A DNA stretch of 64,000 bases from Xanthobacteraceae bacterium (GTDB lineage Bacteria; Pseudomonadota; Alphaproteobacteria; Rhizobiales; Xanthobacteraceae): contig SCUB01000019.1 of assembly GCA_004297465.1 (NCBI GenBank), positions 192,501 to 256,500 on the forward strand, given 5' to 3'. Below are positions 14,751 through 38,667 of the stretch, piece by piece. The notes below the pieces were generated by a model, which ran no database searches, was not told where the DNA came from, and saw nothing but the letters and a program-made list of their open reading frames with translations. Position 1 is the stretch's first letter. Every line of letters begins with the position of its first letter. The position numbers and the translations under genes were made by a program.

Positions 14751-14798
14751 TTGACTCCGGTCATTCGACTTCATAGCCTCCTAACCTACCGGCCGGTA
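14751..14798 (+). promoter_or_regulatory. Promoter with TetR-type palindrome for the CoA ligase/molybdenum hydroxylase operon
   Basis: TTGACT (14751-14756) and TAGCCT (14774-14779) are spaced by 17 bases, a plausible sigma-70 promoter. The perfect 12-base palindrome TACCGGCCGGTA (14787-14798) lies at the expected transcription start, where a bound repressor would block initiation. GC-rich ACCGG/CCGGT palindromes are typical of TetR-family operators, and a TetR gene closes this operon at 21362-21955. The rest of the 14559-14841 gap shows no gene. Confidence 0.6.
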
Positions 14799-14841: not shown

Positions 14842-17322
14842 ATGGACTGGTCGGCATTCGCCGTGTGGGGAGATGTTGCGCGCCACTATGCGGTTATTGC
14901 CGCCGACCGAACGGCTTTCAAGGATGCGCGCGGTACGGTGAGCTTCGGTGCCGCCAATGCGCGGATGAACCGACTCGGCAGCGCGCTCGGCGCGCTGGGG
15001 CTTACGCCGGGCGATCGTGTCGCGATGCTGGCGCGCAACCGCTCCGAATATTTCGAGGTGCTGGGCCTTGCCAAATCGGGCCTGATCGCCGTGCCGCTCA
15101 ACTGGCGGCTGTCGCCGCGCGAACTCGGTCATGTCATCGGCGACTGCCAGCCCGCCGCCATCATCGCCGAAGCGAATTTCGCGCCGGTCGTCGACGGCTT
15201 GCGCGACGCCATTCCCGACGGCGTGCATTTCATTGTGCTCGACGGCGACCGGCCGGGCTGGCTGGCCTATGAGGCGTTGCTGGCGCGCGGCATCGCGGAG
15301 GAGCGCGCGGCCGAGGTCGCTCCCGATGACGTCGCCTGCCTGATGTATTCAAGCGGAACGACCGGCGCGCCGAAGGGCGCGATGCTCACGCATCGCGGCA
15401 TTCTCGCCAATGCGCGCCTGCAGAGCGATGTCGCGCTCGGGCTTTCCGCCGGCGACAGGCTGCTCGCGGTGCTGCCGTTCTTCCATGTCGGAGGGATGTG
15501 GTATTTCGCCTTCGCCGGCTACGCGCGCGGCTGCACGACGGTGATCCTGCCGCAGTTCGAACCGCGCACCGTGCTGGCGACGCTGGGTGCCGAGGCAATC
15601 ACGGCGCTGCATCTCGTGCCAACCATGATCGACGCGCTGCTGCGCGAACCGATGCACGGCGAAGTCGATCTGTCGCGGCTGCGCTGCCTGCTCTACGCGG
15701 CCTCGCCGATGCAGCCCGAGCTGCTCAAGCGCGCGATGCGGGCATTCCCGCATTCCGGTTTCGTGCAGAGCTACGGATCGACGGAAACCGGCACCGTGAC
15801 CTATTTCCCGGCGGACGATCATCGCCGGGCGATCGGCGATGCCGCGCTCGAGCATCGGCTCAGCTCATGCGGACGGACAGGGCCGGAAACCGAGCTCGCC
15901 GTTCGGGCCTTCGATGGCCGCGATGCACCTGCCGGCGAGATCGGCGAGGTGGTGGTGAGCAGCGCGCGCATGATGAAAGGCTACTGGCGCAACGAGGCGT
16001 TGACGCTGGCCACGTGCGACGGCGGCTGGCTCCGGACCGGCGATCTCGGCTATCGCGACCGCGACGGATTCATCTATCTCGTGGACCGCAAGAACGACAT
16101 GATCGTGACCGGCGGCGAGAACGTCTACCCGAGCGAGGTCGAGGCGGAAATGCTCGCCGACGCCGACGTCGCCGAGGCAGCGGTGTTCGGCGCGCCCGAT
16201 TCCAAATGGGTGGAAATGGTGGTGGCCGCGGTCGTGCTCAGGCCAGGCGCTACGACTAGCGGCGAAGCGATCGCCGCGCGGCTGCGCCAGCGTCTTGCCG
16301 CCTACAAGTGTCCGAAGAAAATCTTCATCGTCGATCATCTGCCGCGCAACGCCGCCGGAAAGATTTTGCGCAGGTCGTTGCGCGACCGGTTCGGCGGCGC
16401 GTCCATCCAGGGAGATACCATGCCATCCGCACCGAGTAACGGAGTCGTCTTCTATCGCCGCATGCCGCGCTTCGACTACTTCAGGCCGGCGAGCATCGAG
16501 GAAGCTCTGGCCGCGATCGATCCGGACGTGCCGCTGAAGGATCAGGTCTACGCCGGCGGTACCGACCTGATGCCCAAGCTCAAGGCGCGCGACATCCGGG
16601 CGCCGAAATGCGTCATCGACCTCAAGGGTATCGAGGGGCTGGACTATGTCCGGTGGGATGACGAGACCGGCCTGCATATCGGCGCGCTCGCCACCGTCGC
16701 GATGGTCACGGCCTCGGCGGAGGTGCGCAACCGCTATGCGGCACTTCATGAAGGCGCGTCTCTGATCGCCTCCGACCAGATCCAGCATCGCGCCACCATC
16801 GTCGGCAATGTCTGCAACGCGGTGCCGTCGGCCGATTCCATACCGGCGCTGCTGGCGCATGACGGCGAGGCGATCTGCGTCAGCCGTCGCGGCGAGCGTA
16901 TCGTTGCGCTCAGGGATTTCTTTCTCGGTGCCGGCAAGGTGGCGCTGGGCGAAGCCGAGCTGGTCAGGGAAATCCGCCTGCCGCCGCCGCGGCCCGGCGA
17001 GCGCACCACCTATCTCAAGCTCGCCCCGCGCGGCCGCATGGATCTTGCGGTGGTCGGCGCGGCCGCCAGCCTCCTCATCGAAGGGGGCGTGGTGCGGACC
17101 CCGCGCATCGCGCTCGGCTCGGCGGCGCCGATCCCGCGGCGCGCGGCGGAGGCTGAAGAAGCGATCGCCGGCCGGCCGCTAACGTCGCAGACCATCGACG
17201 CCGCCGCGAAACTCGCCGCCCGGCACGCCACCGCCCGCTCCAGCCATCGCGCCTCGGCCGACTATCGCACGCTGATGCTCGAAGTGCTGGTGCGGCGCGC
17301 GCTCGCCCGGCTTGCCGCCTGA
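14842..17322 (+). CDS. Fusion: AMP-dependent acyl/aryl-CoA ligase + FAD subunit of a molybdenum hydroxylase
   Basis: One 826-codon frame encodes two complete proteins. Residues 1-520 are an adenylate-forming CoA ligase: ATP loop YSSGTTGAPKG at about 169-179, QSYGSTETG, WLRTGDLGYRD, DMIVTGGENVYPSEVE, and catalytic Lys507 in PRNAAGKILRR. Residues 527-826 are a CoxM/HcrB-type FAD subunit: DQVYAGGTDLMPKLKAR, HIGALATVAMV, HRATIVGNVCNAVPSAD and LAPRGRMDLAVVGAAA. No [4Fe-4S] insertion typical of 4-hydroxybenzoyl-CoA reductase beta subunits is seen. Met527 (ATG at 16420) is preceded by AGGGAG at ideal spacing, so the second part probably began as a separate gene. Either a true fusion is made, or internal initiation also yields the free subunit. 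The [2Fe-2S] and molybdopterin subunits follow immediately. Confidence 0.88.
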   Translation: MDWSAFAVWGDVARHYAVIAADRTAFKDARGTVSFGAANARMNRLGSALGALGLTPGDRVAMLARNRSEYFEVLGLAKSGLIAVPLNWRLSPRELGHVIGDCQPAAIIAEANFAPVVDGLRDAIPDGVHFIVLDGDRPGWLAYEALLARGIAEERAAEVAPDDVACLMYSSGTTGAPKGAMLTHRGILANARLQSDVALGLSAGDRLLAVLPFFHVGGMWYFAFAGYARGCTTVILPQFEPRTVLATLGAEAITALHLVPTMIDALLREPMHGEVDLSRLRCLLYAASPMQPELLKRAMRAFPHSGFVQSYGSTETGTVTYFPADDHRRAIGDAALEHRLSSCGRTGPETELAVRAFDGRDAPAGEIGEVVVSSARMMKGYWRNEALTLATCDGGWLRTGDLGYRDRDGFIYLVDRKNDMIVTGGENVYPSEVEAEMLADADVAEAAVFGAPDSKWVEMVVAAVVLRPGATTSGEAIAARLRQRLAAYKCPKKIFIVDHLPRNAAGKILRRSLRDRFGGASIQGDTMPSAPSNGVVFYRRMPRFDYFRPASIEEALAAIDPDVPLKDQVYAGGTDLMPKLKARDIRAPKCVIDLKGIEGLDYVRWDDETGLHIGALATVAMVTASAEVRNRYAALHEGASLIASDQIQHRATIVGNVCNAVPSADSIPALLAHDGEAICVSRRGERIVALRDFFLGAGKVALGEAELVREIRLPPPRPGERTTYLKLAPRGRMDLAVVGAAASLLIEGGVVRTPRIALGSAAPIPRRAAEAEEAIAGRPLTSQTIDAAAKLAARHATARSSHRASADYRTLMLEVLVRRALARLAA

Positions 17323-17351
17323 TGCTCACTCCACCCGCGGAGACCTCCGTC

Positions 17352-17831
17352 ATGAAGACCATCGACCTGCGTTTCACCATCAACGGCGCGAAAGAGCGCG
17401 TCAGCATTCCGCCGCACCGCACGCTGCTGGAACTGTTGCGCGACGACCTGCAGCTGATCGGCACCAAGGAGGGCTGCGGCCATGGCGAATGCGGCGCCTG
17501 CACGGTCATGCTCGACGGCGTCACGGTCAATTCCTGCCTCGTGCTGGCCGCCGAGATCGACGGCCGAAGCGTGACGACCATCGAGGGGTTGCGCAGCGGC
17601 GACAAGCTGCATCCGGTGCAGCAAGCATTCATCGACGAGAGCGGCTATCAGTGCGGGTTCTGCACCTCCGGTGTGATCCTCAGCACCAAGGCGCTGCTCG
17701 ACGCCAATCCGCACCCGAGCGACGATGAGATCAGGCAGGCGCTGGCCGGCAACTTCTGCCGCTGTACCGGCTACACCAAGATCTTCGAGTCCGTGCAGGC
17801 CGCAGCCAAGGGCCTCGAGGGAGATCGCTGA
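17352..17831 (+). CDS. [2Fe-2S] subunit of xanthine dehydrogenase-family enzyme
   Basis: The 159-residue small subunit carries all eight cluster cysteines: Cys42, 47, 50 and 62 for the plant-ferredoxin-type N-terminal cluster (GCGHGECGACTV), and Cys101, 104, 136 and 138 for the C-terminal cluster (QCGFCTSGV, NFCRCTGY). It passes electrons between the molybdenum site and FAD. The frame also contains an ATG at 17322 that overlaps the preceding stop, but the ATG at 17352 matches family starts. The molybdopterin subunit begins one base after its stop codon, so the three subunits are tightly coupled. Confidence 0.95.
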   Translation: MKTIDLRFTINGAKERVSIPPHRTLLELLRDDLQLIGTKEGCGHGECGACTVMLDGVTVNSCLVLAAEIDGRSVTTIEGLRSGDKLHPVQQAFIDESGYQCGFCTSGVILSTKALLDANPHPSDDEIRQALAGNFCRCTGYTKIFESVQAAAKGLEGDR

Positions 17832-17832
17832 C

Positions 17833-20160
17833 ATGAGCGCTGAAAACAGGGATGTTCGTGGCCGCAACTGGTCGACGCTGATCGGCAAGCGCCTGCCGCG
17901 TGTCGATGGCCTTGAGAAGGTGACGGGCGAGGCCAAGTATGGCGCCGACTACAATCTGCCGGGGCAGTTGTGGCTCAAGATCCTGCGCAGCCCCCATCCG
18001 CATGCGCGTATCCGCCGCATCGACACCTCGCGCGCGCTGGCGCTCGATGGCGTGCGCGACATCGTCACCGGCAAGGATTTCAACGGCTGGCGCTGGGGCT
18101 GGATGCATCAGACCCGCGACGAAACCCCGCTCGCGGTCGACAAGGTGCGCTTCTACGGCGAAGGCGTGGCGGCGGTTGCCGCCGTCGACGAGGAGACCGC
18201 GGAAGAGGCCTGCGGCCTGATCGACGTCGAATACGAGGTGTTGCCCGGCGTGTTCAGCGTCGATGAGGCCATGCGCGAGGGCGCGCCGCTCGTTCATGAC
18301 GACAAGCCCGGCAATGTGAGCTGGGAATTCCACATGAACCATGGCGACGTCGAGGCCGGCTTTCGCGAAGCTGATCACATCCGCGAGGACCGCTTCGAGA
18401 CCGGCCGCGTGCTGACCGGATTCCTCGAGCCGCCGGCGGCGATCGCGCAGTGGAATTCCTCCGGCATCACGGTGTGGGCCTGCAAGCAGAGCCCGTATTT
18501 CCACTACCGGCACCTCGCCGCCTGCTTCGGGCTGCCGCTCAGCAAGATCCGCGTCATCCAGACCTTCGTCGGCGGCGGCTTCGGCGGCACCAAGAACGAC
18601 TCGGTCGCCGGCGATCTGTGCGCCGTGCTCATGTCGAAGCGCACCGGGCGCCCGGTGAAGTTCGTCTACACCATGGAGGAGGTGTTCACGACCTGCCGCC
18701 GCCGCCACAACTTCGTCATCATCAACAAGATGGGTATGAAGAAGGACGGTACCATCACCGCGATGCAAAGCAAGGCGATCGGCGAGGGCGGCTTCTGCAC
18801 CGCGATCGGACCGCTGACGCTCTATCTCACCGGGGTGATGAGTACGCTGCCGTACAGGCTGCCGAATTTCAAGCACAACGCCTATCGCATCTTCACCAAC
18901 CACCCGGCCGGCGCGGCGATGCGCGGCCATGGCTCGACGCACACCCGCTTCGCCGCCGAGGTCCAGATCAACATGATGGCCAAGGATCTCGGCCTCGATC
19001 CGCTCGAGGTCAGGCTGAAGAACGCCGTCACCGCGCCGCATGAAACCATCAACGGCATCCTGGTGAAATCGGCCGGCATCAAGGAAGGGCTCGAGGTTCT
19101 GAAAGAGAGCGCGGCCTGGCGCGAGAAGGTGGAGCGGCGCCATGCCGGCAAGGATGTCGTGCACGGCGTCGGGGTGTCGGGCGCCAGCTACAGCGGCGGC
19201 GCGCGCCAGCGCGGCCATCAGGCCTGCTCGGCCATGGTGCGGCTGTGCGAGGACGGCACCATCAATTACCTGACCGGCGCCACCGATTGCGGACAGGGCT
19301 CCGACACCGTGCTGGTGCAGATCATCGCCGAGGAACTCGGGCTCGGCCTCGACGATGTCGGTATCCGCCGCGTCGACACCGCGATGACCACGGTCGATCC
19401 CGGCAGCTACGGCAGCCGGGTCACGCTGTTCGCCGGCGAGGCGGCGCAGAAGGCGGCGCGCGAGGTGCGCGACCAGCTTGCCGCGGTGGCCGCCAGGCAA
19501 TGGAACGTCGCCGCGGAGCGGATCGCCTTCAATAGCGGCAACGTGTTTGTCATCGACGACCCGGACAAGTCGATGCCGTTCCGCAAGCTGGCGCAGATCG
19601 CCTGCTATGCGGAGACCGGGGCGGTCATCATGGGGCGCGGCTATTCGGAATATTCGCCGGAACCATATGATTTCGACAACGGCTATGGCGATCCTGGCGT
19701 CAACTTCAGCTTCACGGCGCAGTTGACCGAGGTCGATGTCGATCTCGAAACCGGCATCACCAGGGCGACCGATTTCCTCATCGCCCATGACTGCGGCCGT
19801 CCCATCCATCCGGTCAATGTCGAGGCGCAGGTGCAGGGCGCCGCGGTGCAGGGCCTCGGCCAGGCGCTGTACGAGGAATTCAGGATGGAGAACGGCCGCA
19901 CGCTCAATCCCAACTTCGTCGACTACCGCATGCCGCTGGCGACCGAGGGGCCGGCCATCACGGTGGTCGACATCCTCACCGACGATCCCGACGGCATCCA
20001 CGGCGCCAAGGAGGCCTCCGAGGGTTCGATCGTCAGCACGCCGCCCTCGGTGGTCAGCGCCATCCATGACGCCACCGGCGTCTGGTTCACCTCGCTGCCG
20101 GTGACGCCGGAGAAGATCGCGCTGGCGCTCAAGGCCAGACGCGACCGGGGCGCGGAATAA
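17833..20160 (+). CDS. Molybdopterin-binding subunit of xanthine dehydrogenase-family enzyme (aryl-CoA-type)
   Basis: The 775-residue catalytic subunit has the aldehyde oxidase/xanthine dehydrogenase a/b hammerhead (RVDGLEKVTGEAKYGADYNLPG) and the molybdopterin-binding part: TGFLEPPAAIA, FVGGGFGGTKND, AMRGHGSTHTRFA, TDCGQGSDT, HDCGRPIHPVN, and the C-terminal KEASEG with the catalytic glutamate. Its organisation resembles 4-hydroxybenzoyl-CoA reductase HcrA and furoyl-CoA dehydrogenase HmfA more than purine-oxidising enzymes. With a CoA ligase in the same operon, hydroxylation or reduction of an aryl- or heteroaryl-CoA is the best inference. GGGAG before the ATG supports the start. Confidence 0.93.
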   Translation: MSAENRDVRGRNWSTLIGKRLPRVDGLEKVTGEAKYGADYNLPGQLWLKILRSPHPHARIRRIDTSRALALDGVRDIVTGKDFNGWRWGWMHQTRDETPLAVDKVRFYGEGVAAVAAVDEETAEEACGLIDVEYEVLPGVFSVDEAMREGAPLVHDDKPGNVSWEFHMNHGDVEAGFREADHIREDRFETGRVLTGFLEPPAAIAQWNSSGITVWACKQSPYFHYRHLAACFGLPLSKIRVIQTFVGGGFGGTKNDSVAGDLCAVLMSKRTGRPVKFVYTMEEVFTTCRRRHNFVIINKMGMKKDGTITAMQSKAIGEGGFCTAIGPLTLYLTGVMSTLPYRLPNFKHNAYRIFTNHPAGAAMRGHGSTHTRFAAEVQINMMAKDLGLDPLEVRLKNAVTAPHETINGILVKSAGIKEGLEVLKESAAWREKVERRHAGKDVVHGVGVSGASYSGGARQRGHQACSAMVRLCEDGTINYLTGATDCGQGSDTVLVQIIAEELGLGLDDVGIRRVDTAMTTVDPGSYGSRVTLFAGEAAQKAAREVRDQLAAVAARQWNVAAERIAFNSGNVFVIDDPDKSMPFRKLAQIACYAETGAVIMGRGYSEYSPEPYDFDNGYGDPGVNFSFTAQLTEVDVDLETGITRATDFLIAHDCGRPIHPVNVEAQVQGAAVQGLGQALYEEFRMENGRTLNPNFVDYRMPLATEGPAITVVDILTDDPDGIHGAKEASEGSIVSTPPSVVSAIHDATGVWFTSLPVTPEKIALALKARRDRGAE

Positions 20161-20186: not shown

Positions 20187-21329
20187 ATGGACATGCTGTT
20201 TGACGAAGATCTCAAGGCGTTTCGTAATGAGATCGCGCGCTGGGTGGACGAGCGCCTGGCGCCGCGCGCGGAGGCGCTCGACGCCAGCGAGGAGTTCGCC
20301 GAAGACCTGTTCAAGGAACTGGGCGAACTCGGCTATCTCGGCGTCATGTATCCGGAAGCCTATGGCGGCAGCGGCATCGAGCGTCCGTATCTCTACTTCA
20401 CGGTGCTGTGCGAGGAGTTGGCGCGCGGTTCGGCGGGGTTCGCCGCCACCGTCTGCATGCACGGCTCGACCGCCACCAACACGATCCATGCCTGGGGCAG
20501 CGAGGATGTGCGGCAGAAATACCTGGTGCCGGCGCTGCGCGGCGACATGGTCGGCGCGTTCGCCATCACGGAAGCCAATGCCGGCTCGGATGCATCGGCG
20601 CTGCGCACGCGCGCCGAGAAGGTCGCCGGCGGCTATCGCCTCAACGGCATCAAGCTATTCACCTCTGGCGCCTACCATGCGGACTTCATCACGGTGGCGG
20701 CGACCAGCGACCCGTCAAAGGGCCTCAAGGGCATTGGGCTCTATCTGCTCGATACCGCAGCGGAAGGATTCTCGGTCCGCAAGCTGTCGAAATTCTCGGT
20801 GCGCTGTTCGGATACCAACGAACTCCTGCTGGATAACGTGTTCATCCCCGACGACCGCCGGCTCGGCGACGAGCATGGCGGCTTTCTCAATGCCTACAAG
20901 TCGCTCACGGTCGACCGCATCTTCACCGCCGCGCTGGCGCTCGGCATTGGCCGGGCGGCTTACGAAGCCGCGCTGCGCTACGCCAAGGAGCGGGTCCAGT
21001 TCGGTCAGCTGATCGGCAAATTCCAGGCGGTGCAGTTCAAGCTTGTCGACATGCTGGCGATGCTTGAGCAGTGCCGGCTTTATACTTATTATGCCGCCGC
21101 GCTTGCCGATCGCGGGCAGGCCATCACCACGGAGGCGGCACTCGCGAAGATCGTGGCGGCGGACGGCTGCAACGAAGTCTGCCAGAAGGCGTTGAACATT
21201 TTTGGCGGCTATGGGCTGATGAACGAGTTTCCGGCACAGCGGTATCTTCGCGACTCCTACTTTCCGATGATCGGTGGCGGTACCAGCGACATCATGCGCC
21301 TCATCATCTCCCGCCAGCTTGGCCTGTAG
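20187..21329 (+). CDS. Acyl-CoA dehydrogenase
   Basis: This 380-residue flavoenzyme shows family motifs in order: FKELGELGYLGVMYPEAYGG, FAITEANAGSDASALRT (FAD and substrate loop), LSKFSVRCSDTNELLLDNVFIP, YAKERVQFGQLIGKFQAVQFKLVDM, and the C-terminal NIFGGYGLMNEFPAQRYLRDSYFPMIGGGTSDI region. It should oxidise an acyl-CoA to its enoyl-CoA with transfer to ETF. The residue at the usual catalytic-base position lies in the GGGTSDIMR stretch, where many members carry Glu (GTSEI); here it is Asp, so the base may be different or displaced. A GGGGAGG ribosome site precedes it. It belongs to the operon starting at 14842. Confidence 0.93.
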   Translation: MDMLFDEDLKAFRNEIARWVDERLAPRAEALDASEEFAEDLFKELGELGYLGVMYPEAYGGSGIERPYLYFTVLCEELARGSAGFAATVCMHGSTATNTIHAWGSEDVRQKYLVPALRGDMVGAFAITEANAGSDASALRTRAEKVAGGYRLNGIKLFTSGAYHADFITVAATSDPSKGLKGIGLYLLDTAAEGFSVRKLSKFSVRCSDTNELLLDNVFIPDDRRLGDEHGGFLNAYKSLTVDRIFTAALALGIGRAAYEAALRYAKERVQFGQLIGKFQAVQFKLVDMLAMLEQCRLYTYYAAALADRGQAITTEAALAKIVAADGCNEVCQKALNIFGGYGLMNEFPAQRYLRDSYFPMIGGGTSDIMRLIISRQLGL

Positions 21330-21361
21330 GGGCCTGGCGGCCAACCGGAATCCGTAAAAGC

Positions 21362-21955
21362 ATGAACGGCCAGCCCGCGGACCGCGTCGAGGAAACCGTT
21401 GCGATCGCGCTCAGGCTGTTCACCGAGCGTGGCTACGACAACACGCCGATGTCGGCGGTCGCCGATGCGCTCGGCCTGACCAAGGCGGGCGTCTATCATC
21501 ATTTCGAGAGCAAGGAGCACCTGCTCTATCTTGTCCACAAGCACACGCTGGAAAGCCAGCTCGTGCCGCTGATCGAACAGGCCGAAGCCGAGCCGGACGC
21601 GGGCATGCGCATCCGCAGGTTCATGATCGACTATGTGCTCCTGCTCGCCCGTGATCCGAGCGCGGCCATGCTCATCAACGAGTCGCGGCGGCTCGCGCCG
21701 CATCACCTTGCCGAGATCCGCGGCATCTGGCGTCGCGGGTATCGCATGCTGCGCGGCACGATCATCGAGTTGCAGCAGCGCGGCCTGTGCCGCGAGGGGG
21801 TCGATCCGGTCTATGCGGCGTTCGGCGCGATCGGCATGACGAGCTGGATCATCCACTGGTTCGACAGGGCGCGCGGCGGAAACGCCGACGCGGTGGCGCG
21901 GACGATGTGCGGGATTTTTCTCGACGGGATCCTGAAGGACGGAGCGCGGCCGTAA
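21362..21955 (+). CDS. TetR/AcrR-family transcriptional regulator
   Basis: The 197-residue protein begins with a TetR helix-turn-helix: EETVAIALRLFTERGYDNTP and SAVADALGLTKAGVYHHF with SKEHLLYLV, at residues 9-57. The rest is a helical ligand-binding domain, probably for a CoA ester. The open frame extends upstream into the acyl-CoA dehydrogenase gene, but the ATG at 21362 is the natural start and lies 32 bases after that gene's stop. As the last gene of the operon it likely binds the palindrome at 14787-14798 and closes an autoregulatory loop. Confidence 0.9.
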   Translation: MNGQPADRVEETVAIALRLFTERGYDNTPMSAVADALGLTKAGVYHHFESKEHLLYLVHKHTLESQLVPLIEQAEAEPDAGMRIRRFMIDYVLLLARDPSAAMLINESRRLAPHHLAEIRGIWRRGYRMLRGTIIELQQRGLCREGVDPVYAAFGAIGMTSWIIHWFDRARGGNADAVARTMCGIFLDGILKDGARP

Positions 21956-22724: not shown

Positions 22725-23993
22725 TCACGCCGCCTCCAGGAGCAGCGCCATGCCCTGGCCGCCGCCCGCGCAGGCCGAGACGATGCCGCGCCTCAATCCG
22801 GCGCGGCGCAGTTCAAGCAGGCAGGACAACGTCGCGCGCACCCCGGTCGCCGCCAGCGGATGACCGAAGGCGATGGCGCCGCCATTGACGTTGAGCCGCG
22901 CCAGATCGAGGCCGAGGTCCTTGACGCAGGCCAGCGTCTGCGCGGCGAACGCCTCGTTGATCTCGATGCGGTCGATGTCGGCGAGCGCAAGGCCGGTCGC
23001 GTCGAGCAGGGCCATGATCGCCGGCACCGGGCCGATCCCCATGATCTCCGGCGGAACGCCGACGGTGGCGGCTGCGACGACGCGGCCGAGCGGCTGCTGT
23101 GTGGCATCGCGAAGCCCCGCGCCGCCGGTGACGATCACCGCCGCGCCGCCGTCGACGATCGCCGAGCTGTTGCCGCCGGTCTGCACGCCGCTGAACGAGG
23201 CACGGAGCTTTTTCAGCGCATCGAGCGAGGTCGGCCGGATATGGGTGTCCTGCGCCACCTCGTCGATGTCGCGCGGCAGGCGGATCTTGCGCGTCGCGTA
23301 GCGCGGCAGCTCGAAGCTCTCGTTGACGACGGGGACGATCTCCTCGGCCAGAGCGCCCGATGCTTGCGCGGCCACCGCGCGCGCGAAGCTCAGGCCCGCG
23401 AACTCGTCGACCTCCTCGCGCGAGATGGCGTAAAGTTTGGCGAGGTTCTCCGCGGTGCCGCCCATGTTGGTGCCGGGCGCGGTGTCCATGCTGCCCTCGG
23501 TGAGATAGTCGCCGAATTCGACCTGGCCGAGCCGGAAGCCGCCGCGATGGCTGAAGGCGGCGATCGGATGGCGGGTCATGTTCTCGGCGCCGACGCAGAG
23601 CGCGGTCGAGAAACTGCCGGCGGCGATGCCGGCGGCCGCCTGGGTGATGGTCTCGAAACCCGAACAGCAGATGCGGTGCACCTGCAGCGCCGGACGCGAG
23701 GCCGGCACGCCGGCATAGAGGCCGACATGGCGCGCGTAGAGCAGCGCGTCGAAGCTCGACGGCGCGACCTGCGCGGCGAAGGTGACGTCCACCGCCGCGC
23801 CGTCGATGCCGGCCCGCGCGATGGCGGCGCGCCCGGCCTTGATGCCGAGATCGGTCCCCGAAATGTCGGCGAACGCGCCGTTGTAATCCGCGAACGGCGT
23901 CCGCGCGCCATGCAGCACCCACACGTCGTCGTATTGCGCGACGAGAGCCGCGGCGACGCATTCCTTCCAATCCGGTGTCACGCTTTCCCCCAT
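22725..23993 (-). CDS. Thiolase family protein (acetyl-CoA C-acyltransferase)
   Basis: The 422-residue protein has thiolase features: nucleophile Cys109 in VHRICCSGFETI, GAENMTRHP, FAGLSFARAVAAQASG, INEAFAAQTL, the active-site His in NGGAIAFGHPLAATGVR, and the second catalytic Cys in SACAGGGQGMALLLE. The nucleophile motif CCSG differs from the commoner CGSG or CASG. It should cleave a 3-oxoacyl-CoA with CoA, or run in reverse. It is divergent from the feruloyl-CoA-synthase-like gene with a 288-base control region between. With the SDR at 26144 it would provide two steps of beta-oxidation. Confidence 0.92.
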   Translation of the reverse strand: MGESVTPDWKECVAAALVAQYDDVWVLHGARTPFADYNGAFADISGTDLGIKAGRAAIARAGIDGAAVDVTFAAQVAPSSFDALLYARHVGLYAGVPASRPALQVHRICCSGFETITQAAAGIAAGSFSTALCVGAENMTRHPIAAFSHRGGFRLGQVEFGDYLTEGSMDTAPGTNMGGTAENLAKLYAISREEVDEFAGLSFARAVAAQASGALAEEIVPVVNESFELPRYATRKIRLPRDIDEVAQDTHIRPTSLDALKKLRASFSGVQTGGNSSAIVDGGAAVIVTGGAGLRDATQQPLGRVVAAATVGVPPEIMGIGPVPAIMALLDATGLALADIDRIEINEAFAAQTLACVKDLGLDLARLNVNGGAIAFGHPLAATGVRATLSCLLELRRAGLRRGIVSACAGGGQGMALLLEAA

Positions 23994-24281
23994 GGTCCGT
24001 AATAGTGGACGTTATCATGGCAGAGGAATTTTTAGTTTCATAGTGGAAAAATGTTGTGGAAGTAAACTCGCCGAAGTGGCGATAAGTGACTTAACGGAAG
24101 CCGGCAATTTGCAGGAAGCTCAGGCGCCGCTCTGAAAATATGTTTCCAAATAAACAAAAAAACTTGCGCTCGCTCCACTCCGGCGACATACTCGGCCAAA
24201 CAAGCGAGCCGGAGGCCAGACTGGGGCGCCGGGGGATAATTGTTGCCGCGGATGCCGTCCGGCGACCGCATACGGGAGAGA
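23994..24281. promoter_or_regulatory. Divergent control region between thiolase and CoA synthase genes
   Basis: This AT-richer stretch separates two divergent catabolic genes. It contains TGTTTCCAAATAAACA at 24141-24156, with 5-base inverted arms TGTTT/AAACA, a possible operator for the nearby MarR or TetR regulator. GGGAGAG at 24274-24280 is the ribosome site of the downstream gene. No gene was recognised here. Confidence 0.4.
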
Positions 24282-26153
24282 ATGGTGACCATCTCTGCGC
24301 CATTGCGCGAGATCGCGATCGGGCCATGCGATGTCGAGATGACGGAGCGTGCCGACGGCGTGATCTACGTGAAGTCGCTGGTCCCGCTCGGGGCGTTTCC
24401 GGGCCGGTTGACCGAGCGGCTCGAGCATTGGGCCGTTGTCGCCCCCGAGCGGATTTTCCTTGCCGAGCGCGACGGCCGCGACGGGTGGCGGACGCTGACT
24501 TACGGCCAGACCCTGCCGCTCGCGCGACGCGTCGCTGTCGGTCTGCTGGCTCACAATGCGTCGCCCGAGCGTCCCGTCGCCGTTCTTTCCGGCAACGGCA
24601 TCGACCACGCGGTGATCGCGCTCGCCGCCTATTTCGCCGGCGTTCCCTATGCGCCTGTCTCGCCCGGCTATTCGACGATCCCCGGCGGTCTCTCGAAACT
24701 CCGGTACGTTCTCGACCTGCTTACGCCGGGGCTGGTCTATGCCAGGGACGGCGGGCTCGTAACCGATGCCGTGCGCGGCCTCATTCCCCGCGATGCGGCG
24801 CTCGTCATGTCGCGGGCGGTGCCGGCGCTGCCGTGCGCTTCGAGCTTTGCCGATCTGGCGGCCGTCGCCGACGACGAGGCCGTCGAGCGCGCCTATGCCA
24901 GGGTCGGGCCGGACACGATCGCCAAGATCCTGTTCACCTCGGGATCGACCGGCGTGCCCAAGGGCGTGATCCAGACGCACCGGATGCTGTGCGCCAATCA
25001 GACCATGGTCGCCGCCATTTTTGCTTTCCTGGCGGCCGAGCCGCCGGTCGCGGTCGACTGGCTGCCGTGGCACCACACCGCTGGCGGCAACAACAATCTG
25101 GGTTCGGTGCTGTTCCACGGCGGCTCGCTCTACATCGACGACGGCCGGCCCGCGCCGGGCGAGATCGACAAGACCATCCGCAACCTGCGCGACATTCCGG
25201 CCACGGTGAACTACGGCGTCCCCAAGAGCTGGGCCGATCTCATTCCCCATCTGCGCGCCGACAAGGGCTTGCGCGAGACGTTCTTCCGGCGGCTGCGGCT
25301 CATGTTCTATGCCGGCGCGAGCCTGCCGCAGCATGTGCTGGATGCGCTCAACGAACTTGCCGTCGAAAGCTGCGGCGAGCGGGTGGCGGTCATGACCGGC
25401 CTCGGAGCCACCGAAACCGGCCCGTCGGCGCTATGCTGCACCAGGGAAGTGACGCGCGCCGGCATCGTCGGCCTGCCGCTGCCGGGCGTCACGCTCAAGC
25501 TGGTTCCGAAGGCGGGCAAGCTCGAGGCGCGCATCAAGAGCCCGAGCCTGACGCCGGGATACTGGCGCCAGCCCGCGCTGACGCAGCAGGCGTTCGACGC
25601 CGAGGGGTTCTACCGCCTCGGCGATGCCCTGCGTTTCGCCGACCCCGGCGACGTGCGCGGGGGCTTCATCTTCGACGGCCGCATCGTCGAGGATTTCAAG
25701 CTCCTGTCCGGCACTTGGGTCAATGTCGGCAGCCTTCGCCCGCAGCTGCTGACGCACTTTGCTCCGCTTTTCGCCGACGTGGTCATTACCGGGGGCGATC
25801 GCGCCGAAGTGGGCGCGCTGGTGTTTCCCAGTCTTGAGCGATGCCGGGAGGCGGCCGCGCTGCCGCTCGGCGCGCCGGCGGCCGATGTGCTGTCGCATCC
25901 GAACTTGCGGGCGCGCATCGCGCGGCGGCTCGACGAATTCGCCCGCGCCGCAACCGGCAGTTCGAATCGGGTGACGCGGCTGCTGTTGCTGCGCGATCCG
26001 CCGTCGTTCGGCGACGGCGAGATCACCGACAAGGGATCGATCAATTCCCGCGCCGTCCTTGAACGGCGCGCCGCGAGCGTCGAGGCGCTCTATTCGGCAA
26101 CGCCGGGCGCGGAAGTCATTGTCGTGGGGTCGGGAGAAAAAGCATGGAACTGA
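24282..26153 (+). CDS. Feruloyl-CoA synthase-like AMP-dependent ligase
   Basis: The 623-residue ligase is longer than ordinary acyl-CoA ligases and matches the feruloyl-CoA synthase group: [24 protein letters not shown] loop [16 protein letters not shown] (about residues 222-237), [27 protein letters not shown], and the group's [22 protein letters not shown] region near 466. It should convert hydroxycinnamates or related aryl acids to CoA thioesters with ATP. Start choice is uncertain: ATG 24282 sits 3 bases from GGGAG, and the adjacent GTG at 24285 is better spaced. Its end overlaps the SDR gene by 10 bases. Confidence 0.85.
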
Positions 26154-26905
26154 AGGAATTTTTCGCGTTCGTGACCGGGGGCGGATCGGGGCTGGGCGAG
26201 GCTACGGTGCGTGCGCTCGCGGCGACCGGCGCGAAGGTCGCGGTGTTCGACAAGAACGCCGAGGCGGCGCGCCGCGTCGCGGAGGCCGTCGGCGGTCTTG
26301 CCGTGGTCGGCGACGTGGCCAGCGAGGACGATGTCGCGGGCGCCTTCGATGCGGTCGCGGCCCGGTTCGGCGGCCTGCGCGTCGTCGTCAACTGCGCCGG
26401 CATCGGCACCTCGGGGCGCCTCGTTTCCAAATCCGGGCCGCATCCGCTCGAACTGTTCGAGCGGACCATCCGTGTCAATCTCGTCGGCACCTTCAACGTC
26501 ATGCGGTTCGCCGCGGCGCGCATGACGACGGAAGATGAGCTCGAGAGCGGCGAGCGCGGCGTCATCATCAACACGGCGTCTGTCGCCGCCTTCGAGGGCC
26601 AGCTCGGCCAGTGCGCCTATTCGGCCTCGAAGGGCGGCATCCATTCGATGACCCTGCCGGCGGCGCGCGAACTGGCGCGGTTCGGCATCCGCGTCATGAC
26701 CATCGCGCCGGGGCTGATCCGCACGCCGCTGTTCGACACGCTGCCGCCGGATGTCGCCGAGCGCATCGAGGCGCAGAGCGTGTTCCCGCGCCGACTCGGC
26801 CGGCCCGAGGAATTCGCCGACCTGGTCGTGGCCATTGTGCGCAATCCGCTGCTCAACGGCGAGACCATCCGGCTCGACGGCGCGCTGCGGCTTCCGGTTT
26901 CCTAG
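26144..26905 (+). CDS. SDR-family dehydrogenase (3-hydroxyacyl-CoA dehydrogenase-like)
   Basis: The 253-residue protein is a classical short-chain dehydrogenase: cofactor loop TGGGSGLG at residues 11-18, DVASEDDV, NCAGIGTSG, and the catalytic YSASK near 159-163 preceded by NTASVAAFEG. The PGLIRTPLFDTLP and GETIRLDGALRLP segments are typical of the type II 3-hydroxyacyl-CoA dehydrogenase (HSD17B10-like) group, which oxidises 3-hydroxyacyl-CoA with NAD+. It overlaps the end of the feruloyl-CoA-synthase-like gene by 10 bases, so the two are coupled. A beta-oxidation step on the ligase product is the likely role. Confidence 0.9.
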   Translation: MELKEFFAFVTGGGSGLGEATVRALAATGAKVAVFDKNAEAARRVAEAVGGLAVVGDVASEDDVAGAFDAVAARFGGLRVVVNCAGIGTSGRLVSKSGPHPLELFERTIRVNLVGTFNVMRFAAARMTTEDELESGERGVIINTASVAAFEGQLGQCAYSASKGGIHSMTLPAARELARFGIRVMTIAPGLIRTPLFDTLPPDVAERIEAQSVFPRRLGRPEEFADLVVAIVRNPLLNGETIRLDGALRLPVS

Positions 26906-27182
26906 CGGAAAGAAATCAAAATGCGGCAGCGCAGCATGCACTACGCGCGGCGCAAGAAGCAGCGTCCACGAAAGGTATCTCCGCAACCGCAAACCGATTG
27001 ACACTGTATCCGGATCGCATCGACGCGGCCGATTTATCGCCGCGCGGCGTGGGGGCCGTCCGGTCTCGATCCAAGATAGTTATATCAGAGAACAAAAAAA
27101 TATTGCTCAGACGAAGGGAGACGATAAGATGATCCAGACATCGCTGCGACAAAGACTGGCGAGTTTAACCGGGAGGGACGAC

Positions 27183-28430
27183 ATGACGAGAAAGCGCGAG
27201 CTGTTTGCATTCGGTGCCCCATCTGCGACGGCCAGCCGCCGTCAGGCGTTGCTGGCTTCGGCGGTCGGGCTGTTGCTGCTGGCTGGCGGAGCTGCCGCCA
27301 GCGACAAGAAATACGCGCCCGGCGTCACCGACGCTGAGATCGTGATGGGGCAGACCATGCCCTATAGCGGCCCGGTGTCGTTCGCGAGCGCGAACGGCGT
27401 CGGAGATATGGCGTTCCTCAAGATGCTGAACGAGCAGGGCGGCATCAACGGCCGCAAGCTGAAGCTGATCTCGCTCGATGACGGCTATGTGCCGCCCAAG
27501 GCCCTGGAGCAGACGCGCAAGCTCGTCGAACAGGACAATGTCGCGTTCATTTACAGCAGCCTCGGCACCGGCCCGATTTCCGCGACCGCGAAATACCTCA
27601 CCGATCGCAAGGTGCCGCATTTGCTGTTCAACGCGGGAACCGACAAGTTCTATTCCAGCGAATTTCCGACCTTGGTGCCGTATTTTCCGCGCTATGCCTT
27701 TCAGGCGGAAGTCCTGACGCGGTGGATCCTCAAGGAGAAGCCCGACGCCAAGATCGTCTGCCTCTACCAGAACGACGATTTCGGCAGGAATTTCGTCGAC
27801 GGCCTCAAGCGGGTGCTGGGCGCGAAAGCCGGCAATGTGATCAAGGAAGTCAGTTTCGAGGTGCGTGATCCTTCCGTGGATTCGCAGGTGATCTCGCTGG
27901 CGGAAACCAAGGCCGACATCATCATGGTCGCCTCGGTGCCGGCCCGTCCGGTCAGCCAGGCCATCCGCAAGGCGGCCGATCTTGGCTGGAAGCCGGTGTT
28001 CCTGCTGATGCCGGTCACCAACAGCGTCGAGACCGTGCTGCGCGCCGGCGGGCTGGAGAACGCCGTCGGCGCCATTTCGGCGGCCTGGATGAAGGATCCG
28101 TCCGATCCGGGCTTGCAGAACGATCCTGACGTCAAGGCCTGGAACGCCTGGATGGACAAGTACATCCCCGGCGCGGACAAGCGGAACAACTCGTACCACT
28201 TCCCGTATCTGAAGGGCTGGATGCTCAAGAACATCCTGGAGCGGGCGGGCAACGACCTGTCGCGGGAGAATCTGCTGAAGGTCGCCAACACGATGCCGAA
28301 GATGTCGCTGCCGCTGTTGCTTGACGGGATCACCATCGAGGGGACGCCGGAACTCAGGACGATGCGCATCATACGGTTCAATGGCACCACCTGGGTTCCG
28401 ATCAGCGACCCGATTACCGCCACGCAGTAA
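27183..28430 (+). CDS. ABC transporter substrate-binding protein, Liv type
   Basis: The 415-residue periplasmic protein begins with an export signal containing SRRQALLASAVGLLLLAGGAAA. The mature part matches the branched-chain amino acid/aromatic acid receptor family: DAEIVMGQTMPYSGPVS, LNEQGGINGRKLKLISLDDGY, KLVEQDNVAFIYSSLGT and YQNDDFGRNFVDGLK. In alphaproteobacteria such proteins often bind aromatic acids. Two starts are credible: ATG 27129 after AAGGGAG and ATG 27183 after GGGAGGG. The second gives a shorter leader and is used here. LivGFHM-type genes follow. Confidence 0.88.
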   Translation: MTRKRELFAFGAPSATASRRQALLASAVGLLLLAGGAAASDKKYAPGVTDAEIVMGQTMPYSGPVSFASANGVGDMAFLKMLNEQGGINGRKLKLISLDDGYVPPKALEQTRKLVEQDNVAFIYSSLGTGPISATAKYLTDRKVPHLLFNAGTDKFYSSEFPTLVPYFPRYAFQAEVLTRWILKEKPDAKIVCLYQNDDFGRNFVDGLKRVLGAKAGNVIKEVSFEVRDPSVDSQVISLAETKADIIMVASVPARPVSQAIRKAADLGWKPVFLLMPVTNSVETVLRAGGLENAVGAISAAWMKDPSDPGLQNDPDVKAWNAWMDKYIPGADKRNNSYHFPYLKGWMLKNILERAGNDLSRENLLKVANTMPKMSLPLLLDGITIEGTPELRTMRIIRFNGTTWVPISDPITATQ

Positions 28431-28452
28431 AAAGGTTGGCTCCGGACCGAAC

Positions 28453-28494
28453 GGCGCCTTGCGGGTAGGGATCATCCTTGTCCGCAAGGGCGCC
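28453..28494 (+). promoter_or_regulatory. Intercistronic hairpin after the substrate-binding protein gene
   Basis: GGCGCCTTGCGG and CCGCAAGGGCGCC form a 12-base-pair stem with a single bulged G and a 17-base loop, 22 bases after the stop codon. There is no T-run. In ABC operons such hairpins protect the abundant binding-protein mRNA and reduce readthrough into the transporter genes. Confidence 0.6.
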
Positions 28495-28619
28495 GCGCGG
28501 TTTCGCAGCGCATCCCCCGCGCGGGATCATGCGGGCATACTTCTGGCGTAAATACCGTTTGAGGGCAGTCGCGGCCCGAAAACCGTCGCTCTCATTTAGC
28601 CCCGTCACAACGGCCGGAA

Positions 28620-29407
28620 ATGATGCTGACTGTGCCTCCCAATGAACAGCCGCTCCTCGTGTTCAACGACATTTCCGTCAGGTTCGGCGGAATCGTCGCG
28701 CTCGATAGCGTGTCGTTCGAAGTCGGCGCGGGCCAGATCTGCGGGCTGATCGGCCCCAACGGCGCCGGCAAGACGACGCTGTTCAATTGCCTGAGCCGTA
28801 TCTACCGGCCGAGCGGCGGATCGATCAGATTCGATGGCCATGAGATTCTCGATCTCGCGCCGTTCCGGATCGCGGCGGTCGGGATTGGGCGCACCTTCCA
28901 GAACCTGGCGCTGTTCGCGACGATGTCGGTCAGGGACAACGTTCTCGCCGGCACGCATTGCCGGGGCCGCAGCGGCTTCTTGACCGATGCGCTGTCGCTG
29001 CCGATGGCGAGGCGGGAGCGGCGGAGATTTGAGGAGAGCGCCGACGAGTTGATCAGCTTCCTCGATCTCGACGCGGTCAGGCAATTGCCGGTCTCGCAAC
29101 TGCCGTTCGGCACGCGAAAGCGCGTCGAGCTTGCGCGCGCGCTGGCCAGCCAGCCCAAGCTGCTGCTGCTCGACGAACCGGCCGGTGGACTGAACCACGA
29201 AGAAGTCGATCACCTGCGTTCGATCATCTTCTCGCTGCGCGAGCGGTTCAGGATGACGGTGCTGCTCGTCGAGCATCACATGAACCTGGTGATGCGTGTT
29301 TCGGACAAGGTGGTCGCGCTCGATTTTGGCCGCAAGATCGCCGACGGCGCTCCCGCCGATGTCCGGATAAATCCGGATGTCATCCGGGCCTATCTGGGAG
29401 CCGAGCA

Positions 29408-29411
<4 letters not shown>
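28620..29411 (+). CDS. ABC transporter ATP-binding protein, LivG type
   Basis: The 263-residue ATPase has Walker A GPNGAGKTT near residues 44-52, the Q-loop in GIGRTFQNLALF, a signature region LPFGTRKRVELARAL (replacing the usual LSGGQ by LPFGTR, as in LivG proteins), Walker B LLLLDEPAGGL and the H-loop in LLVEHHMNLV. It is in the inner-membrane-associated ATPase pair with LivF, which starts four bases before its end. It drives uptake of the ligand captured by the protein at 27183. Confidence 0.93.
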
Positions 29412-30124
<713 letters not shown>

Positions 30125-30135
30125 GGCCCGCCATC

Positions 30136-31002
30136 ATGGATGCATTGCTGTTTCAGATCACCTCCGGAATAACCACGGGATTCATTTACGCGAGCCTTGC
30201 GCTGGCGCTGGTCATGATCTTCCAGTCGACCAACCACATCAATTTCGCCCAGGGCGAGATGGCGATGTTCTCCACCTATATCGCCTTCACGCTGGTGCAG
30301 GCCGGCGTCCCGTTCTGGATCGCATTTCCGACCACGCTGCTCGGCGCATTTGTCATGGGCTTTGTCATCGAGCGGTTCGTGCTGCGCCCGTTCGCCGACG
30401 CGCCGGTGCTGACCATCGTCATCGTGTTCATCGGGCTGCTGGTGATCTTCAATTCGATCGCGGGATGGATCTTCGGCTACGAGATGCAGCCGTTCCCCAG
30501 CCCGTTTCCCCACAGTTGGGGCACCCGGCTTGTTTCGGCCCACCAACTCGGCATCGCCGTCGTCACGCTTTCCGTTCTCGCGGCCGTGTATCTGTTCTTC
30601 CGCTTCACGTCGCTGGGTCTTGCGATGCGCGCCGCGGCGCAGAATCCGGTGTCCAGCCGTCTGGTCGGCATCCGGGTCGGGCTGCTGCTCGCCGTGGGAT
30701 GGGGTCTTGCGGCGGCCATCGGCGCGGTGGCCGGCATCATGGCGGCGCCGATCGTCTTTCTCGAACCGAACATGATGGCCGGCATCATGATCTATGCCTT
30801 CGCGGCGGCGCTGCTCGGGGGCATCAACAATCCGGCGGGCGCGGTGCCGGGCGGCATCATTGTCGGCGTGCTGGAGAATCTCGCCGGGGCCTATGTGGTC
30901 GGAACCGAGCTGAAGCTGACGACCGCGCTGGTGATGATCCTGCTTGTTCTTCTGATCCGGCCGGCCGGTCTGTTTGGCCGCACATTGAGGACGCGCGTGT
31001 GA
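30136..31002 (+). CDS. ABC transporter permease, LivH type
   Basis: The 288-residue inner-membrane permease starts with ITSGITTGFIYASLALALVMIF and has the family segment STNHINFAQGEMAMFSTYIAF (about residues 35-55), ALRAAAQNP-like GLAMRAAAQNPVSSRLVGI, and ALLGGINNPAGAVPGG. About eight membrane spans are visible. The ATG at 30136 is preceded by GAGG; the in-frame start at 30121 would overlap the upstream stop and is less likely. Confidence 0.93.
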   Translation: MDALLFQITSGITTGFIYASLALALVMIFQSTNHINFAQGEMAMFSTYIAFTLVQAGVPFWIAFPTTLLGAFVMGFVIERFVLRPFADAPVLTIVIVFIGLLVIFNSIAGWIFGYEMQPFPSPFPHSWGTRLVSAHQLGIAVVTLSVLAAVYLFFRFTSLGLAMRAAAQNPVSSRLVGIRVGLLLAVGWGLAAAIGAVAGIMAAPIVFLEPNMMAGIMIYAFAAALLGGINNPAGAVPGGIIVGVLENLAGAYVVGTELKLTTALVMILLVLLIRPAGLFGRTLRTRV

Positions 31003-35190: not shown

Positions 35191-36104
35191 CGGCCCGGAA
35201 TGGCCGGGGCAAGGTCCTGAAGCGAGGCCAGCCGCGTGATGGCGCGTTTCGCCAGTGACTGCGACCGCGTCATCGTCGGCTCGTCCTGCGCAAGGTCGGC
35301 CGCTTCAAGGTAGTGCTCCACCAGAAGCTCGGCGGTGGCCAGTATCGTCCGCAGATCGTCCGCGTCGGCGGCGGAAGGCTGTGGCGTCATGGCGGCCGGC
35401 GCGGTTTCGTCGGCCATCTGCCGGCCCTCATAGATCCATTTTCGCAAACCTGCCCGCATATCGGACTCGCCTGTCTGGCTGAGGCGGTCGAGCCCGAGGG
35501 CAAGGTGTCTTTCGAGCCCGGCGGCTTCGAGCAGGATTTCGTCGGCGGAACGGCGGCGGGAAGCGGCCTGCCCCGTGGACGGGCCTCTGGCCCGGCGTTC
35601 CTCATGATAGGCGCGGCGCCGTTCGCGCCGCAGCATCGCGACATGCTCGAGTTCTTCCCGCGCCAGCGCCTCGGCGGCCTGATGGATCTCGAGATTCGGC
35701 GCCTGCGCGGCGATATAGGCCCAGAACGCGAAGGTCCGCTCCTCGTTGCGCACCGCCATTGAAAGCGCCTGATAGGGCGTCGTGATGCGCGAGCCCGCCA
35801 TGTCGCCGGCCTCGTCGCCGAAGATTCCGGGAACCCGCCAGCGGACATCGGCAAGGTCCGGCCGTTTGCCGCTGCGCGCCGCCGACAGGTCGCCGACGCG
35901 GTCGCGATGCCGCTGTTCCTCGTCCGCCAGATGCTCGAACACGGCGGCCGTGGACGCCGCGCCATGATCGCGCATGTCGGCCGCGAGTTCGCGGTAGCGT
36001 TCGCTCGCTTCCTTTTCCATGGCCGATGCGATGGCGAACAGCTCCGCAAGCGAGCGCACGCGCTCGGGCGGTTCGGTCTTCAGAAGGGAAGTCAGTAGCG
36101 ACAT
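35187..36104 (-). CDS. Ferritin-like (rubrerythrin-type) diiron protein
   Basis: The 305-residue protein has an N-terminal rubrerythrin-like four-helix domain: FAIASAMEKEASERYRELA, VFEHLADEEQRHRDRV, MAVRNEERTFAFWAYIA and LAREELEHVAMLRRER (about residues 20-165), giving the E/E-x-x-H pattern of a diiron site. A second helical region follows (ILLEAAGLERHLALGLDRL and ILATAELLVEHYLEAADLA), less conserved and without obvious metal ligands. The rubredoxin domain of rubrerythrins is absent. The ATG at 36104 after GAGAGG is preferred over 36140. A peroxide- or NO-related redox role is possible; position next to nosR is the only support. Confidence 0.78.
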   Translation of the reverse strand: MSLLTSLLKTEPPERVRSLAELFAIASAMEKEASERYRELAADMRDHGAASTAAVFEHLADEEQRHRDRVGDLSAARSGKRPDLADVRWRVPGIFGDEAGDMAGSRITTPYQALSMAVRNEERTFAFWAYIAAQAPNLEIHQAAEALAREELEHVAMLRRERRRAYHEERRARGPSTGQAASRRRSADEILLEAAGLERHLALGLDRLSQTGESDMRAGLRKWIYEGRQMADETAPAAMTPQPSAADADDLRTILATAELLVEHYLEAADLAQDEPTMTRSQSLAKRAITRLASLQDLAPAIPGR

Positions 36105-36157
36105 GGCCGGGCCTCTCGCAGGCCGGCGAGTATCGCACATTTGTGACCTTCATCATA

Positions 36158-36184
36158 TTGCGACAGTCGATCGCAACGCTTGCG
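36158..36184 (+). promoter_or_regulatory. Inverted repeats upstream of nosR
   Basis: TTGCGA (36158-36163) and TCGCAA (36171-36176) form an inverted repeat with a 7-base spacer, and the right arm also pairs with the following TTGCG (36180-36184) across CGC. The arms recall Crp/Fnr-family half-sites (TTG...CAA), but the spacing is 13 rather than 8 bases. It lies about 120 bases before the nosR start in a 200-base gap with no gene. Confidence 0.4.
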
Positions 36185-36303
36185 TGAGGAAGGCCCCCTG
36201 CGTCTTGACGGCCGCGCCTGGGAGGTGCAAGGGGAAATCGTTCCTGACTATCCACCCGCGTGGGCTTTGTCCCTGCCGGGGGCAGGTCGTGTGCGGGAGC
36301 GTC

Positions 36304-38640: not shown

Positions 38641-38667
38641 AGGCCGTGGTCAATAGTGGAGGCTGCA

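Follow-up and report, generated by a model that had tools for sequence, protein, structure and literature searches.

We analyzed a 64,000-nucleotide stretch of DNA from a Xanthobacteraceae bacterium (the window), in which an acyl-CoA ligase and the FAD subunit of a molybdenum hydroxylase are encoded in one continuous frame. The composite gene and its operon comprise the following features:

14787-14798, unstranded: 12-nt exact palindrome TACCGGCCGGTA, a candidate TetR-type operator, ending 43 bases before the ligase ATG
14842-17322, + strand: composite ORF, acyl-CoA ligase plus FAD subunit, 826 aa (open frame and Pfam)
14842-16419, + strand: acyl-CoA ligase portion, residues 1-526, catalytic Lys507 (PF00501, PF13193, motifs, orthologues and model)
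16402-16479, + strand: interdomain join, residues 521-546, modeled as disordered (pLDDT <50)
16409-16416, + strand: putative internal ribosome-binding site AGGGAGAT (SD energy); the same 8-mer lies ahead of coxL at 17818-17825
16420-17322, + strand: FAD subunit (CoxM/XdhB family) of a molybdenum hydroxylase, start Met527, 300 aa (PF00941, PF03450)
17322-17831, + strand: 2Fe-2S subunit, CoxS type (PF00111, PF01799), with a better ribosome-binding site at ATG 17352 by SD energies
17833-20160, + strand: molybdopterin subunit, 4-hydroxybenzoyl-CoA-reductase-like, CoxL (PF01315, PF02738, PF20256)
20187-21329, + strand: acyl-CoA dehydrogenase (Pfam), the partner of the ligase in relatives
21290-21955, + strand: TetR-family regulator at the operon end (PF00440, PF17932)

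Frame and domains of the composite ORF

The ORF reading of the window gave 826 codons between 14842 and 17322 with zero internal stops. The source assembly contains the identical frame, which is no independent evidence since the underlying sequence is the same. Pfam placed AMP-binding at residues 21-382 and AMP-binding_C at 432-507, followed by FAD_binding_5 at 543-715 and CO_deh_flav_C at 724-823, all well above cut-off. A complete ligase occupies approximately residues 9-518 and a complete FAD subunit of the xanthine oxidase family residues 543-823. The sequence-only reading had described just this arrangement, one 826-codon frame joining a complete ligase with Lys507 to a complete FAD subunit, and it is borne out by ORF, Pfam and motif analysis. 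A frameshift linking two frames was dropped as the default explanation, because the two halves share a frame and the composition is that of coding sequence along its whole length; GC at third codon positions is 0.75-0.82 across the join.

The motifs of both the ligase and the FAD domain are intact. Lys507 is the lysine of AAGK, and further ligase signatures are found at residues 170 (SSGTTG), 311 (YGSTETG) and 415 (DRKND); we take these motifs to represent the P-loop, the hinge and the catalytic lysine. With PF00501 and PF13193 above cut-off and the motifs present, the ligase belongs to the ANL (adenylate-forming) acyl-CoA ligases. The best NCBIfam model, NF004837 (long-chain-fatty-acid--CoA ligase), scored 461 bits with the full protein and 463 bits with the ligase alone against a cut-off of 476, which places the ligase outside that subfamily. 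Acyl-CoA ligases of known structure match the ligase part, with FadD5 aligning over residues 9-520, and a PDB sequence search matched the FAD subunit to solved FAD subunits, with 4zoh_B aligning over residues 16-296 of the subunit. PF00941, PF03450 and a medium-subunit fold assign the latter to the CoxM/XdhB family of xanthine oxidase FAD subunits.

In a structure model of the full-length protein, the ligase half was well modeled (pLDDT mostly >90) and no confident FAD domain was obtained, probably due to poor alignment of the FAD rows in the long alignment. The FAD subunit was therefore modeled alone, giving a pLDDT of 83 and a good model except for residues 1-15, which are disordered, and 205-207. 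Its best fold match is the CO dehydrogenase flavoprotein 1ffu_C (TM 0.87/0.91). The fold matches include the longer xanthine dehydrogenase and aldehyde oxidase chains 1jro_A and 1fo4_A, in which, as we understand them, another domain precedes the FAD domain, suggesting that the fold tolerates an N-terminal attachment.

Relatives of the ligase and their gene order

We compared the ligase with 11 orthologues that are 44-52% identical to it. They come from Mesopusillimonas (L024), a Pseudolabrys MAG (L025), a Massilia plasmid (L082), a Variovorax plasmid (L083), five genomes of the family of the window (L106-L110) and two further genomes (L115, L116). All 11 carry their own stop codon after the ligase, and none of the 11 loci holds the fusion. 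The orthologues end 13-24 residues past the catalytic lysine: 14-21 residues in the seven parsed by script, and 18 (L083), 24 (L108), 13 (L109) and 19 (L110) residues in the four counted from their C-terminal tails. Lys507 and Met527 of the composite ORF are separated by 19 residues. The ligase thus ends at its natural length and neither gene is missing a part, which indicates that two whole genes have been joined tail to head, as after one lost stop.

At five of the 11 loci (L024, L025, L082, L115, L116), the next gene on the ligase strand encodes an acyl-CoA dehydrogenase that shares 69-72% identity with the product of 20187-21329. At L106 a dehydrogenase with 67% identity is oriented divergently to the ligase, and L083 and L107-L110 have no partner dehydrogenase in the stretch compared, their best dehydrogenase matches being at most 31% identical. 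The five adjoining pairs resemble the window in both partners (ligase 48-52%, dehydrogenase 69-72% identical), but they are unfused and have no molybdenum hydroxylase in between, whereas in the window coxM-coxS-coxL lies exactly between the two genes. The simplest history is accordingly an insertion of the molybdenum genes followed by stop loss. None of the 11 loci has a coxM match within the stretches fetched (at most 1.5 kb per side for L115 and L116, approximately 7-9 kb for the others), so that the pairing of this ligase with a hydroxylase is seen in the window only; L107 has a coxS match approximately 6.5 kb from its ligase. A Cupriavidus replicon (L112) carries coxM-coxS-coxL with a CoxM 40% identical to that of the window, and no ligase match was found in the 16 kb examined there.

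A probable internal start site at Met527

ATG 16420, which encodes Met527, is preceded by AGGGAG with a 5-nt spacer, ATACC. Its predicted SD duplex with the 16S tail has an energy of -8.2 kcal/mol and ranks 6 among the 305 in-frame ATGs, ATG 16420 itself included, that lie from codon 51 onward in the 42 listed genes of the window. Five other internal ATGs equal or beat the site, and SD-like sites do arise by chance. For comparison, when the strongest candidate among the first 40 codons is taken for each of the same 42 genes, the median is -6.1 kcal/mol, a figure that favors true starts since the best candidate of each gene was chosen. A shorter start for the FAD subunit at ATG 16462 was rejected for its weak ribosome-binding site (-2.2 versus -8.2 kcal/mol). 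The 8-mer AGGGAGAT occurs three times in the window against 1.26 expected, so its presence alone is not significant, and it is its position that matters. The copy at 17818-17825 sits in the tail of coxS, where a TGA then comes before the coxL ATG.

Sequence and SD score confirm the earlier observation of an AGGGAG ideally spaced from Met527. They do not support its description as a relic, since the site scores like a working start; by this measure, the Met527 start looks live rather than relic. Because a ribosome-binding site precedes Met527, it is likely that the FAD subunit is still made separately. A precedent is Cas8b/Cas11b, where, in the accessible part of the report, one frame yields a long protein together with its C-terminal part from an internal start methionine (PMC11899642). 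The composite ORF as we propose it would work in the same way, but the second product of Cas8b/Cas11b was proven by experiment and that of the ligase-FAD frame is predicted from its ribosome-binding site.

Identity of the molybdenum enzyme

We searched with the CoxL ORF from 17725, which is 36 codons longer than the likely gene. The top model was the 4-hydroxybenzoyl-CoA reductase (HCR) alpha subunit TIGR03194 with 698 bits, ahead of XdhA with 493 bits and below the TIGR03194 cut-off of 994.55. The best PDB chain was 1rm6_A (492 bits versus 298 for the next). Three of eight control CoxL proteins pass the TIGR03194 cut-off with 1241-1285 bits; of the five below it, four reach 597-629 bits and the haloarchaeal L080 reaches 368. 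In these five non-HCR controls, the margin of HCR over XdhA is at most approximately 97 bits or reversed, and that of the window CoxL is larger. The FAD subunit (P0002) lacks the cysteine insertion that the same alignment shows in L090; this insertion presumably binds [4Fe-4S] in the beta (FAD) subunit of HCR. The low score and the missing insertion rule out a true 4-hydroxybenzoyl-CoA reductase and mark the enzyme, by these sequence measures, as a relative of that family and not a member. An aerobic CO dehydrogenase was rejected as well, with CoxL at 309.6 bits against a TIGR02416 cut-off of 991.15. The earlier label of a CoxM-type FAD subunit consequently holds at the family level and fails beyond it, as the molybdenum subunit is closer to 4-hydroxybenzoyl-CoA reductase than to CO dehydrogenase.

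Among the CoxL proteins sampled, the nearest to that of the window shares approximately 39% identity with it, which anchors substrate and history loosely. Among seven ligase-bearing genomes, one has any CoxL at E <1e-100, and this protein is 34% identical. As the related reductase acts on CoA thioesters and a ligase gene adjoins the hydroxylase genes, the substrate is likely a CoA thioester. Comparable arrangements have been described. In the accessible text on Rhodopseudomonas palustris, the hbaA ligase and hbaBCD carry consecutive locus numbers (PMC6974649). There, as in the window, a CoA ligase gene adjoins genes for a molybdenum enzyme acting on a CoA thioester, but the genes are separate, whereas the window has a CoxL below the HCR cut-off and a FAD subunit without the insertion. 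The 2-furoate genes hmfABCDE encode the 2-furoyl-CoA synthetase HmfD and the molybdenum 2-furoyl-CoA dehydrogenase HmfABC, as far as the available text describes them (PMC6678421). The likeness to the window, drawn from that description, is in activation to a CoA thioester followed by molybdenum-dependent oxidation; synthetase and dehydrogenase carry separate gene names, unlike the fused window gene.

Search for a second fusion

The full-length protein was searched against 61 genomes around the window, and no second ligase-FAD fusion was present among the matches listed. No other one-frame match over both halves appeared in 397 genomes of the order, 398 of the phylum, 296 of the family, eight of genus g366 or 61 around Mesopusillimonas. 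No further genome of the window's own genus (g1) came up in the searches. These genome sets overlap and were searched with single-protein queries under strict E-value limits, often with two or three candidates scored per genome, so distant fusions could be missed. A scan of genome contigs with exact short peptides gave no second fusion, and viral contigs contained no relative. Among plasmids, four haloarchaeal records and no others match the query over 80% or more of its length, each with two separate annotated genes under the match. Full-length homologues with the same domain order, which the sequence-only reading had proposed to look for, were thus absent from the genome and plasmid searches, and these sampled, strict searches did not yield the one further genome that a conserved fusion family would call for. 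The fusion is unusual, but it is a single case. The earlier statement that no enzyme of this architecture has been described agrees with the open-access literature, surveyed non-exhaustively, and with a survey of archaeal fusions, the accessible part of which names CoA-ligase and molybdopterin-synthesis fusions and no ligase-FAD-subunit one (PMC11237513).

Three of these four haloarchaeal plasmids (L080, L081, L084) carry clusters with the order BenE-DUF6282-thioesterase-ligase-coxM-coxS-coxL-ligase-XdhC. As in the window, a ligase directly precedes coxM-coxS-coxL, with gaps of 24, 26 and 15 nt, respectively. In L080 and L084, coxM is in the ligase frame with the ligase stop alone between them, so loss of that one stop would produce the same fusion in these two clusters, whose genes nevertheless remain separate. 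All three differ from the window in keeping separate genes, and their ligases (31-32%) and CoxL proteins (27-29%) have low identity to those of the window. The haloarchaeal cluster perhaps serves furoate or a benzoate-like acid.

Origin and possible function of the fusion

Our preferred reading, to which we assign a probability of about 0.5, is an in-frame merger by stop loss in which one frame gives two products, a flexible tethered form and a free FAD subunit from Met527. The coxM-coxS-coxL set would have entered a pair formed by the ligase and acyl-CoA dehydrogenase genes, and the stop separating the ligase from coxM would afterwards have disappeared, leaving two whole genes joined in frame. 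The earlier proposal of a lost stop is supported by the natural ligase length, the Met527 ribosome-binding site, the 11 self-terminating orthologues and the well-modeled lone FAD subunit with its disordered N terminus; loss of a stop codon between two intact neighboring genes is the most likely origin of the fusion. On one mRNA, translation starting at 14842 would probably yield an 826-aa ligase-FAD protein, and translation starting at 16420 a free FAD subunit of 300 aa. The ligase would convert a carboxylic acid into its CoA thioester, which the three-subunit molybdenum hydroxylase would oxidize or reduce, and the acyl-CoA dehydrogenase may take over a later intermediate. In the tethered form, a flexible linker would attach the ligase to the hydroxylase. 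Physical coupling of activation and redox, as suggested earlier, is possible. We consider it rather doubtful that the FAD subunits of each hydroxylase carry tethered ligases, which would let activation and oxidation of the acid take place in one particle, with the internal ribosome-binding site setting the ratio of tethered to untethered subunits.

Against a two-product merger stands the occurrence of the fusion in one genome only among the sets searched, and a single case also fits an assembly or base-calling error. At the join, a miscalled stop or an indel of one base could disguise two ordinary abutting or overlapping genes, and such an error is the main rival, less probable but serious. 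Two separate genes would be expected to show natural lengths on either side of the join and a good ribosome-binding site, and the 11 ligase relatives keep their ligase separate. Ahead of Met527, the codons CAG 16408 and GGA 16411 are each one change from a stop, and a TAA lies in the neighboring frame at 16437-16439, just past ATG 16420. The frame is nonetheless clean with both halves in phase, and the assembly has 27 contigs with 99.99% completeness and 0.14% contamination, which says little on single bases. It is unlikely that the fusion is instead a selected bifunctional enzyme, its main functional form tethering ligase to hydroxylase for CoA-thioester channeling. The fold does tolerate attachment, as the FAD domains within 1jro_A and 1fo4_A suggest, and the logic of a ligase followed by a molybdenum enzyme is real in the available accounts of hbaA/hbaBCD (PMC6974649) and HmfD/HmfABC (PMC6678421). 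However, sampled genomes and plasmids gave no second fused example, the full-length model, with its poorly resolved FAD half, gives no sign of domain contact, and a settled fusion need not keep a strong separate ribosome-binding site. A damaging accident, with ligase or FAD-subunit function lost or reduced and the operon decaying, would fit a fusion found in a single genome and not elsewhere in the sets searched, but we regard it as very improbable, given that the motifs in both halves are intact, the remaining operon genes have complete domains by Pfam, and SD energies point to strong start sites for ligase, coxL and dehydrogenase.

With whole lengths, a retained ribosome-binding site and recognizable neighbors, the merger favored here appears to be at an early stage. 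If real and expressed, it would be a naturally occurring connection of a CoA ligase to a redox subunit of a molybdenum hydroxylase, support an action of this hydroxylase on CoA thioesters, and offer a simple test case for what governs subunit supply, tethering or an internal start. If a sequencing error, the locus is an ordinary operon.

Surroundings of the operon

The palindrome TACCGGCCGGTA has one match in the window with at most one mismatch, versus 0.06 expected, and falls within an inverted repeat with 10-nt arms. It is a candidate operator, the TetR gene lying at the far end of the operon. Close to the operon, 22725-31002 contains a thiolase gene (- strand), a second AMP-binding protein and a branched-chain-type ABC importer, possibly an uptake and degradation neighborhood. 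An N2O reductase operon at 36019-42011 encodes a Fer4_5 and FMN_bind protein (likely NosR), NosZ and NosD. The likely NosR and NosZ genes share one frame and are 15 nt apart, so that one stop loss would fuse them too. Of 29 same-strand neighbor pairs in the window, 11 share a frame and one (NosR-like/NosZ) would fuse cleanly on one stop loss, in a count made from a small hand-picked gene list that omits the composite ORF and whose pair 13845/17322 is no true neighbor pair.

Elsewhere in the genome, a true HCR alpha gene is found at G000:C12:171365-173626 (L095; 1285 bits). Degradation of aromatic acids via CoA thioesters would fit both this gene and the N2O reductase operon. The genome has a second coxM-coxS-coxL set at 11391-19888 of L100 (G000:C23). 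We ruled out that the window set is a recent copy of it, the two CoxM proteins being just 36% identical. The L100 set comprises two large genes that by eye resemble hydantoinase/oxoprolinase subunits, then coxM, coxS, coxL and a CoA-transferase-like gene.
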